Below are positions 7,421 to 21,833 of a DNA stretch of 33,555 bases, in pieces. The DNA lies in assembly GCA_949294395.1 (NCBI GenBank), contig CASFGU010000019.1, positions 1-33,555 on the forward strand, read 5' to 3'. The stretch's first letter is position 1. Each line of letters opens with the position of its first letter. This DNA is from an uncultured bacterium (GTDB lineage Bacteria; Cyanobacteriota; Vampirovibrionia; Gastranaerophilales; Gastranaerophilaceae). A program made the position numbers and the translations under genes. The notes beneath the pieces were generated by a model. It did no database searches. It was given only the letters and a program-made list of their open reading frames with translations, and was not told the origin of the DNA.

Positions 7421-8452
7421 TTACCACGGATAGTTGTTTTTCATCTCCCAGCCGTCGCGCATAAGTTTTGCCGCGCACATATAGCCGGAACCGGATTTTG
7501 AACAGTTTGCATCTATCTCGTCATCATCCTTGTTATATCCGTAAGGCATTATACCTTTGCCGGCAACCCTTTCCAGAAGGAATACGTCTTTACCGAATGT
7601 GTTTGGCAGCTTTGAGGCATTGAGATCAACGATAATTCTTGTATCTGCTCCGTTTTCTATTTCAATATTTCCGTCCTCATCGGTATCGCCTGTTGACGAA
7701 CCATAACCTGAGCCGGTTAAAATGCTTACAAAGCTCCCGTCAGCAAGAATGACAGGCGTTCTCCATTGGGCTATCACAACAAAATATCCGTCCTTCGTAT
7801 TATTTGCTCTTTTCCATGGCTGGCTTGATGTGTAGGCGCAGGCTGTGGTCTTATTCCCTTTGCATTCTTCTATAATATTCAGGTAAGGTCTCCAGTATGT
7901 ATTGAAAAATACCTGTGTGCCTTTGGAGGTATCCCAGTAGATTGAAGATTCGTTATCAGCCTCCGAGCGTCTGAATGCCTGATTTAATATGGAATAAACC
8001 TTTTGAAGCTGCGCTATGGTTTGCTTTTGCTGATATTTATTGACAAGGGTTGGCAGCGTCATCGCGGCAACAACACCGATAATCCCGAGGGTTATAAGCA
8101 CCTCTGCTAAAGTAAAAGCGGATTTTCTGCGGGTTAAGCGTGAAGAGTGAGGGGTTCGACAAAGTTGAAAGGTTGAAATGTTGAACGGGTGAACGGTTGA
8201 AAGGTTGAAAGGTTCATCTTTTGATATGTCATTCTGAAACATTAATCGTTGAGGCTCACATGAGTTGCCGCTGTTCAGAATCTCTTTGTTTTGCGAGTAG
8301 GGTTCGCTATTGTATTCTCCCTCTGGAATAGGGCTTAATGGTGAGGGTTTTCCTGTGACGTAGGTCGGATTTACTAATCCGACGGGCAGAACTGTTGAAA
8401 AGTTGAACGGTTGAATGGCTGGATACAGAGCCAGTAGTTTGTTTTTTCTCAT
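7421..8452 (-). CDS. Type IV pilin-like (pseudopilin) protein with a repeat-filled leader
   Basis: 343 residues from the ATG at 8452, which has a GGAGG ribosome site nine bases upstream; in-frame codons further upstream lie beyond this site and are rejected. The prepilin motif SA|FTLAEVLITLG puts the peptidase cut before F113, with E117 as the conserved Glu5, so the leader would be about 112 residues where 5-25 is normal. That leader is encoded by repeats: GTTGAA octamers (8164, 8394), a REP-like palindrome (8360) and an ATTCTGAA inverted repeat. The mature part, about 231 residues, has the hydrophobic helix, four or more Cys, and a C-terminal DGWEMKNNYPW that resembles pilin-like gene 2. Probably a surface or pseudopilus protein. 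Promoter and operator lie in the gap to the divergent XRE gene. Confidence 0.85.
   Translation of the reverse strand: MRKNKLLALYPAIQPFNFSTVLPVGLVNPTYVTGKPSPLSPIPEGEYNSEPYSQNKEILNSGNSCEPQRLMFQNDISKDEPFNLSTVHPFNISTFQLCRTPHSSRLTRRKSAFTLAEVLITLGIIGVVAAMTLPTLVNKYQQKQTIAQLQKVYSILNQAFRRSEADNESSIYWDTSKGTQVFFNTYWRPYLNIIEECKGNKTTACAYTSSQPWKRANNTKDGYFVVIAQWRTPVILADGSFVSILTGSGYGSSTGDTDEDGNIEIENGADTRIIVDLNASKLPNTFGKDVFLLERVAGKGIMPYGYNKDDDEIDANCSKSGSGYMCAAKLMRDGWEMKNNYPW
8164..8211. repeat. GTTGAA octamer tandem repeat inside the pilin leader
   Basis: Six 8-base units (GTTGAAAG, GTTGAAAT, GTTGAACG, GGTGAACG, GTTGAAAG, GTTGAAAG), then GTTC. Three units equal eight codons, so the leader reads PFNLSTVH PFNISTFQ as an eight-residue repeat without frame loss. 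Confidence 0.85.
8231..8281. repeat. Inverted repeat in the pilin leader
   Basis: ATTCTGAA at 8231-8238 and its complement TTCAGAAT at 8274-8281 bound 35 bases. This arrangement resembles dispersed intergenic repeats of other genomes. It lies in frame in the predicted leader peptide. Confidence 0.4.
8360..8383. repeat. REP-like GTAG-headed palindrome (copy 1)
   Basis: GTAG followed by the palindrome GTCGGATT-TACT-AATCCGAC (the last G of GTAG is followed directly by it). An identical 24-base copy lies at 16595-16618. A GTAG tetranucleotide 5' of a palindrome is the known hallmark of REP sequences moved by RAYT (REP-associated tyrosine) transposases. No RAYT gene is in the window. Confidence 0.75.
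8394..8417. repeat. Short GTTGAA octamer repeat
   Basis: Three 8-base units (GTTGAAAA, GTTGAACG, GTTGAATG) near the start of the pilin gene, encoding part of the leader around QPFNFST. Confidence 0.7.
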
Positions 8453-12396: not shown

Positions 12397-12473
12397 TGGT
12401 CGGGATGACACGATTTGAACGTGCGACCCCCTCGTCCCAAGCGAGGTGCGCTACCAAGCTGCGCCACATCCCG
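12397..12473 (-). tRNA. tRNA-Pro (UGG)
   Basis: 77 bases including an encoded 3' CCA. Acceptor CGGGATG/CATCCCG, D-stem GCGC/GCGC with the AGCTTGGTA loop, anticodon stem CCTCG/CGAGG with loop CTTGGGA (anticodon TGG), T-arm GCACG-TTCAAAT-CGTGT. Transcribed minus, ending in the terminator at 12362-12393. Confidence 0.97.
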
Positions 12474-12576
12474 TGGTTTATTAAATTTTCAAATGTTTCA
12501 CATTTGAAAAGGTGCGCTACCACCTCTCGTGAAACAATTCACCGGATTGTTTTACTCGGCAGAGTGCTACATCCCG
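12474..12576 (-). repeat. Partial tRNA-Pro-like copy upstream of tRNA-Pro
   Basis: Reading minus from 12576: CGGGATGTAGC (one change from the true tRNA start CGGGATGTGGC), about 40 bases holding hairpins ACTC-TGCC-GAGT and AAACAAT/ATTGTTT, then GGTAGCGCACC (identical to the tRNA D-loop/D-stem region), then a second hairpin TTTTCAAATGT/ACATTTGAAAA. The true tRNA begins 103 bases after the copy begins. The anticodon arm and 3' half are missing, so it cannot be a functional tRNA. Architecture matches the array in front of tRNA-Leu. Confidence 0.75.
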
Positions 12577-21321: not shown

Positions 21322-21350
21322 TTGACATTAAAAGCTTATTTAGATAGAGT
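21322..21350 (+). promoter_or_regulatory. Promoter in front of the tRNA-Leu repeat array
   Basis: TTGACA (21322-21327), 17-base spacer, TAGAGT (21345-21350). It is the best promoter upstream of tRNA-Leu, so the tandem repeats are probably transcribed with the tRNA. Confidence 0.55.
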
Positions 21351-21370: not shown

Positions 21371-21743
21371 GGGTGGCTAAGTCTAGCAAAGAGCCACAAA
21401 CCCGATGAAAACTAAATAAACCTTTGGGCCTGTGGCAAGGCTCCGTTTTTTGATTAAGTATCAAAAAACGGAGGGAGGTAGACGCCGTCTAGCAATGAGC
21501 CGCAAACCCGATGAAAATTAAATAAACCCTTGGGCCTGTGGCAAGGCTCCGTTTTTTGATTAAGTATCAAAAAACGGAGGGAGGTAGACGCCGTCTAGCA
21601 ATGAGCCGCAAACCCGATGAAAACTAAATAAACCCTTGGGCCTGTGGCAAGGCTCCGTTTTTTGATTAAGTATCAAAAAATGGAGGGAGGTAGACGCCGT
21701 CTAGCAATGAGCCGCAAACCCGACAAAAATTGAATAAAACCTT
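21371..21743 (+). repeat. Tandem 106-bp tRNA-Leu-like repeats leading into tRNA-Leu
   Basis: A partial unit (21371-21425) and three nearly identical 106-base units starting at 21426, 21532 and 21638. The next 106-base step, 21744, is exactly the first base of the true tRNA-Leu. Each unit starts GGGCCTGTGGC (identical to the tRNA's first 11 bases), continues with the perfect hairpin CTCCGTTTTTTGAT-TAAGT-ATCAAAAAACGGAG, then GGTAGACGC (identical to the tRNA D-loop/D-stem) and TAGAC-GCC-GTCTA. It ends in about 45 bases, of which AAACTAAATAAACCCTT resembles the tRNA's own 3' flank. In unit 3 one C-to-T change keeps the hairpin as a G-U pair. GCCGCAAACCC near each unit end can pair with the next GGGCCTGTGGC, including that of the true tRNA. 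Confidence 0.85.
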
Positions 21744-21825
21744 GGGCCTGTGGCGAAATTGGTAGACGCACTAGACTTAGGATCTAGCGCAGCGATGTGT
21801 GAGAGTTCGAGTCTCTCCGGGCCCA
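21744..21825 (+). tRNA. tRNA-Leu (UAG)
   Basis: 82 bases, no encoded CCA. Acceptor GGGCCTG/CGGGCCC (one G-U pair), D-stem GCG/CGC with AAATTGGTAGA loop, anticodon stem CTAGA/TCTAG with loop CTTAGGA (anticodon TAG), long class II variable arm (CGCA-GCGA-TGTG), T-arm GAGAG-TTCGAGT-CTCTC, discriminator A. Confidence 0.97.
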
Positions 21826-21833
21826 AATTAAAG

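Follow-up and report, generated by a model that had tools for sequence, protein, structure and literature searches.

When genomic islands and prophages insert at a tRNA gene, the gene stays intact and its end is duplicated. In Escherichia coli, the rtT repeats of tyrT lie in tandem downstream of the gene and include the tRNA 3′ end; to our knowledge they are restricted to that single locus. The palindromes of the REP (repetitive extragenic palindromic) and REPIN (REP doublet forming a hairpin) class, with their RAYT (REP-associated tyrosine) transposases, are short, gene-less, dispersed and structurally conserved, spread within the genome and can cluster (PMC3733652, PMC3116915). The repetitive hairpin and double-hairpin elements of mitochondria are very short, mobile, nested, tandem and gene-less, and the mechanism of their mobility is unknown (PMC2800124, PMC4478555). 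Here we analyse a stretch of 33,555 nucleotides (the window; contig CASFGU010000019.1, assembly GCA_949294395.1) from an uncultured bacterium of the family Gastranaerophilaceae (Cyanobacteriota), in which an array of tRNA-like units, each built around a core hairpin, precedes a tRNA-Leu(UAG) gene. On balance, the array is likely to represent one member, amplified in tandem, of a family of short, non-autonomous mobile hairpins in Gastranaerophilales, an order of gut bacteria.

The family resembles each of the described systems in part. As in tRNA-integrating islands and prophages, an intact tRNA and a duplicated gene end are found, but the units measure about 45–110 base pairs (bp), carry no integrase or open reading frame (ORF), lie mostly at the 5′ and not at the 3′ end and add an inverted copy of the target. 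Tandem repeats containing a piece of the adjacent tRNA gene are shared with tyrT rtT; the present family, however, is order-wide, occurs at many tRNAs and has a foreign core hairpin. Like REP/REPIN sequences the hairpins are short, gene-less, dispersed (up to 27 exact-pattern copies in one genome), structurally conserved and sometimes clustered, but they appear to insert at tRNA and 5S ends, with antisense copies of the target, and have neither a GTAG or CGTC tag nor flanking RAYT genes. Neither core type shows the unpaired GTAG or CGTC that marks one end of a 20–40 bp REP palindrome (type A ends in AAGG(A)CTCC../GGAGGG, type B in ACTCTGCCGA../GAGAGG), and in none of the six Y1 transposase loci scanned was the RAYT (Y1) gene flanked by the same palindrome; because these terminal tags and the RAYT link are absent, we do not file the family as REP. 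Two RAYT-like Y1 transposase genes (L204 in genome G005 and L207 in G023) have another palindrome, TTGGGC..GCCCAAC, on their flanks and look like an ordinary REP system. With the mitochondrial elements the family shares very short, gene-less, nested and tandem hairpins; it differs in being bacterial and order-specific, in the conservation of its core ends and loop, in antisense matched to the target and in the systematic way in which gene ends are rebuilt. No Rfam family covers the hairpins: only tRNA was reported at the gathering score, plus 5S in one locus, and a permissive threshold added chance-level matches only. Open-licence papers held nothing on repeats at tRNAs in Gastranaerophilales or Melainabacteria, and we found no description there of target-matched antisense or of systematic rebuilding of tRNA ends. 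The family looks like an undescribed short mobile element, and not like ordinary duplication.

Tandem Repeats Finder (TRF) delimits the array at 21381–21754 (period 106, 3.5 copies, 95% match, score 678), corresponding to three 106-bp units and a partial one, with a promoter on the 5′ side and, on the 3′ side, tRNA-Leu(UAG), called at 21743/21744–21825/21826 by ARAGORN and Rfam. The features, read from the sequence and from the tools named, are:

21322–21350, plus strand: sigma-70-like promoter TTGACA-17-TAGAGT, 5′ of the array (sequence; the unit-less tRNA of congeners has a promoter at the equivalent place)
21381–21425, plus strand: 5′ partial unit, antisense of the tRNA 5′ half (21381–21403), then A-rich linker (sequence, TRF)
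21426–21531, plus strand: unit 1, with X 21426–21436, core hairpin A 21437–21476, Y 21477–21485, antisense 21487–21509 and linker to 21531 (sequence, TRF, folding)
21532–21637, plus strand: unit 2, layout as unit 1 (sequence, TRF)
21638–21743, plus strand: unit 3, layout as unit 1, with a core C to T giving G-U and antisense 21699–21721 (sequence, TRF, folding)
21744–21826, plus strand: intact tRNA-Leu(UAG), one period after the start of unit 3 (ARAGORN, Rfam)

The first 11 nucleotides of the tRNA, GGGCCTGTGGC, start at 21426, 21532, 21638 and 21744, spaced by exactly 106, the last start being that of tRNA-Leu itself. Every unit comprises, in order, X (tRNA nucleotides 1–11), the core AAGGCTCCG..GATTAAGTATC..CGGAGGGA, Y (the D-arm piece GGTAGACGC), the antisense GTCTAGCAATGAGCCGCAAACCC (tRNA nucleotides ~25–1) and an A-rich linker; the D-loop start is replaced by a perfect 14-bp hairpin (arms CTCCGTTTTTTGAT/ATCAAAAAACGGAG), and the anticodon arm is absent. 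An earlier note, written from the sequence alone, had described the exact register of the units with the tRNA, the retained first 11 bases and D-arm segment, the 14-bp hairpin, the lack of a proper anticodon arm and the promoter, all of which agree with direct reading and, for the register, with TRF, ARAGORN and Rfam; the change in unit 3 does preserve pairing, as it had claimed, on one side only. It overlooked that tRNA nucleotides 1–25 recur, as a degenerate reverse complement, in GTCTAGCAATGAGCCGCAAACCC 3′ of GGTAGACGC, and that the partial unit is the antisense of the tRNA 5′ half plus linker.

This antisense segment is specific for its target. When the segment between core and tRNA was compared with the reverse complement of tRNAs, the mean score was 10.9 for its own tRNA and 6.3 for other tRNAs, against 6.1 and 5.5 for unit-less leaders, and the own tRNA was strictly the best match in 46 of 80 A units, the signal being most evident at Leu(UAA) and Pro, weak at Val and absent at Thr; the tRNA-derived flanks of the core always correspond to the adjacent tRNA. 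Folded as RNA, the array stretch reaches z = −8.35 relative to shuffles; a single unit is predicted to form a three-way junction (X/antisense, core, Y/antisense), and the antisense of unit 3 has an alternative partner, the 5′ half of tRNA-Leu(UAG) itself. The core stem covaries: in 66 distinct A-core inner stems, 525 of 594 cells were paired, against 375 (standard deviation 9, maximum 398) after shuffling the 3′ arms, and several positions show all four Watson-Crick pairs. The pair following CTCC is a conserved G-U in 53 of 65 cases, with recurrent G-A/A-G mismatches close by. The 5′-end units share the tRNA strand, so that this covarying structure lies on the transcribed strand; the new structured RNA suggested by the earlier note holds in part, as a covarying structure outside Rfam whose function at the RNA level is putative. 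We regard it as doubtful, but conceivable, that the antisense copy is itself functional, either as a target-matched guide directing insertion by pairing or as a pre-tRNA decoy or antisense switch for tRNA folding in cis.

The same hairpin occurs at many other tRNAs. The source genome (G000), with a tRNA complement of 40, has the A core also before tRNA-Val(GAC) and tRNA-Pro(CGG), where X, Y and antisense are tRNA-Val or tRNA-Pro sequence; B units (ACTCTGCCGA..GAGAGG) precede Pro(UGG), Pro(CGG), a Met, Ile(GAU), Leu(CAG) and Leu(GAG); units with other inserts precede Phe, Arg(ACG), Lys(CUU), Gly(UCC), Val(UAC) and another Met; and about 25 tRNAs have no unit in their leader. The units with other inserts at Lys(CUU) (L159), Gly(UCC) (L160), Val(UAC) (L158), Phe (L165) and Arg(ACG) (L166) are pseudo-tRNA 5′ halves in which a different insert, about CCAGNGNAGYCGGAGRCGYAGCG, sits after tRNA nucleotide ~19, followed by sequence antisense to the tRNA D-arm (at Lys, a perfect match over 15 bp); these inserts are possibly a third element family. 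One B-type unit, also overlooked by the first reading, lies in the window directly after promoter-like sequence:

12474–12576, minus strand: B-type unit before tRNA-Pro(UGG), with X CGGGATGTAGC 12576–12566, core B 12565–12523, D-arm piece TGGTAGCGCACC 12522–12511, then linker (leader comparison)
12397–12473, minus strand: intact tRNA-Pro(UGG) (ARAGORN)

In genome contigs at least 117 stretches matched the core pattern, and for nearly all of them the label was Gastranaerophilales, Melainabacteria or unassigned bacterium; three were labelled Fusobacterium, Acinetobacter and Clostridia, and we take them to be mislabelled bins. Whole-genome searches, whose exact patterns make the counts lower bounds for each type, found type A in 63 of 386 Cyanobacteriota genomes, all within the family of the window, and type B in 226 of 286 Gastranaerophilales genomes, where it reaches 27 copies, with reversed-pattern controls near zero. 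A scan of viruses gave one match (L156), without a 3′ arm, judged to be chance. Most sampled A copies are 5′ of tRNA genes (Pro, Leu, Val, Thr, Lys, Met), one core being common to about ten tRNA types, and some arrays alternate A and B. In five loci (L055, L080, L090, L121, L074) core A is followed by a second hairpin module, GGCGAG..CGAACG..CGAGCCGTATA or GCTAAGTCAGAAGC..GTGCAGTATA, and another core A can nest 3′ of its GCGAGCC. The genomes are mostly metagenome-assembled, and contigs frequently terminate inside arrays (e.g. L011, L012, L043, L080, L093); because many arrays are located at contig ends, unit counts may be collapsed. The regions upstream of tRNAs probably break assemblies in Gastranaerophilales and hide unit numbers.

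Cores are also found away from tRNA 5′ ends. In a first sample of 210 distinct cores, biased by its search pattern, the nearest neighbour was a tRNA on the same strand in 166, 18 of which were classed as 3′ of that tRNA, mostly between it and the next one; opposite-strand cores were seen at a tRNA 3′ end in 4 and at a 5′ end in none, and most of the remaining cores were located at contig or locus ends. In a second sample, drawn mainly from listed B places in few genomes, about half of the cores were away from tRNAs, in dispersed palindromes such as ACCCTCCCCTTGAG|B|.. in G496, and antisense cores stood at the 3′ ends of Phe, Glu and Arg tRNAs and, once, beside the 3′ end of a 5S rRNA. The common rule at gene ends is that the core is oriented into the gene and the gene beyond is intact. 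Within one genome, some dispersed CCCTCCCC..GGGTGGGG palindromes contain an inserted core hairpin and others do not (G496: L243, L246–L249, L251–L253; G380: L280–L282).

A comparison of unit number between congeners, akin to the one between strains proposed by the earlier note, shows the presence and absence at an orthologous site expected of a mobile element: at the tRNA-Leu(UAG) locus nine congeners have 0, 0, 0, 0, 1, 1, 2, 2 and 3 units. The tRNA-Val(GAC) locus is also variable; in G006 it has one copy in decay. Within an array, the linkers have been homogenised. Cores from different tRNAs resemble each other more closely within a genome than in label shuffles (0.188 vs 0.255, standard deviation 0.007; uncorrected for phylogeny), and a one-base-deleted core, AAGGCTCC, is common to all three A loci of G000; this likeness fits within-genome spread or concerted evolution. 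For the same tRNA across congeners, core identity (0.79–1.00) is usually higher than that of the rest of the unit (0.70–1.00), and upstream flank identity is often at the shuffled level; the better-conserved orthologous core fits recent copies or selection on the core.

Taken together, the evidence supports a mobile, non-autonomous hairpin better than it does a leader specific to tRNAs or a duplicated tRNA in decay. The mobile part would be the core hairpin (A here, B elsewhere, with the second hairpin module sometimes added), and its target DNA able to form hairpins. In most cases this would be the D-arm close to the 5′ end of a tRNA gene; more rarely, the core would enter a T-arm or a 5S end from the 3′ side, or a dispersed palindrome. 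Insertion at the end of a tRNA gene would produce a core-bearing pseudo-copy of the gene end, an inverted target copy, a duplicated leader linker and an intact tRNA, and the essential gene would therefore survive. Units would then multiply by tandem duplication, so that the period keeps running into the tRNA. Insertion probably proceeds via single-stranded DNA or by fold-back template switching at hairpins; we infer that the core is actively mobile and nearly neutral for the tRNA. Of the explanations in the earlier note, a mobile repeat regenerating the tRNA 5′ end comes closest, given the same hairpin at many tRNAs, the 0–3 units at one locus and the dispersed copies; it is not tRNA-derived, the conserved part being the inserted hairpin and the tRNA-like parts local copies of the adjacent tRNA plus an antisense copy.

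Several observations weigh against mobility. No mobilising enzyme was identified: RVT_1 and IS110 are absent from G000, which has only a Y1 fragment; Y1 matches occur in 15 of 39 relatives, and a complete core lies near the Y1 gene in only one of the six loci scanned, and that core is assigned to a tRNA 3′ end. As mobilisers, RAYT/Y1, reverse transcriptase and IS110 were rejected, their presence being inconsistent. A clean core insertion at an otherwise identical site was not seen within one species, the likeness of cores within genomes includes any phylogenetic signal, and nearly all 5′-end units are on the transcribed strand. Cores conserved beyond their flanks, with the conserved G-U and G-A mismatches in the stem, would also suit a selected RNA.

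These last points would fit a functional leader RNA, in which the units are co-transcribed with the tRNA and the pairing of the antisense, either to the pseudo-tRNA half upstream of it (a decoy) or to the tRNA 5′ half, times folding and RNase P maturation, or in which RNase P cuts the units into small RNAs. It is the main rival because 5′-end units stand on the transcribed strand after a promoter and paired changes maintain unit pairing (e.g. in L037, GGTAGAT/ATCTACC vs GGTAGAC/GTCTACC); moreover, folding of leader plus tRNA prefers the alternative antisense fold. We nevertheless think it unlikely: four of the nine congeners have no unit at tRNA-Leu(UAG), G-U vs A-C counts in the antisense give no clear strand bias, and it leaves unexplained both the cores within dispersed palindromes and those in antisense orientation at tRNA 3′ ends. 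Taken over stem and antisense, the G-U and A-C counts, an RNA-versus-DNA comparison, show a weak bias only. The leader controlling tRNA-Leu maturation put forward in the earlier note is possible but not tRNA-Leu-specific, and a leader role could be a secondary use of the mobile hairpin. Transcription attenuation was rejected as a general function because the T-run of the terminator-like GGGCCT..AGGCTC-CGTTTTTT in this array is not conserved in other cores. A group II intron was considered for the GCGAGCCGTAT module, domain-V-like in look, and dropped, with no reverse transcriptase in G000 and no Rfam hit.

Replication errors alone, i.e. fold-back template switching at tRNA hairpins and tandem duplication, with the core a by-product homogenised by gene conversion, would account for the inverted target copies and tandem amplification typical of such errors and for the homogenised linkers; this we find improbable, as the core is foreign and conserved, its ends and loop staying constant across dozens of genomes and unrelated sites. 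Local tandem duplication of decaying tRNA sequence, to which the earlier note would have reduced the array had no other genome carried it and its units drifted neutrally, matches the tRNA first 11 nucleotides and D-arm segment in the units and the decayed unit before tRNA-Val in G006, but is refuted by a covarying core that has no tRNA counterpart and is spread order-wide over about ten tRNA types and dozens of genomes. Elsewhere in the window, an 8-bp tandem repeat (GTTGAAAG, 6.4 copies, 8164–8214) lies within a prepilin-like ORF on the minus strand.

If the mobile hairpin is real, a whole bacterial order bears a gene-less element that lands at tRNA and 5S gene ends and spares the essential gene each time, and the inverted target copies would document, in legible form, the way in which very short palindromes move, a question still open for REP-like and mitochondrial hairpin elements. 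The finding would also be relevant to the ways in which tRNA expression copes with antisense leaders or makes use of them; and should the antisense direct insertion, the element would be a gene-less, self-programming mobile hairpin.
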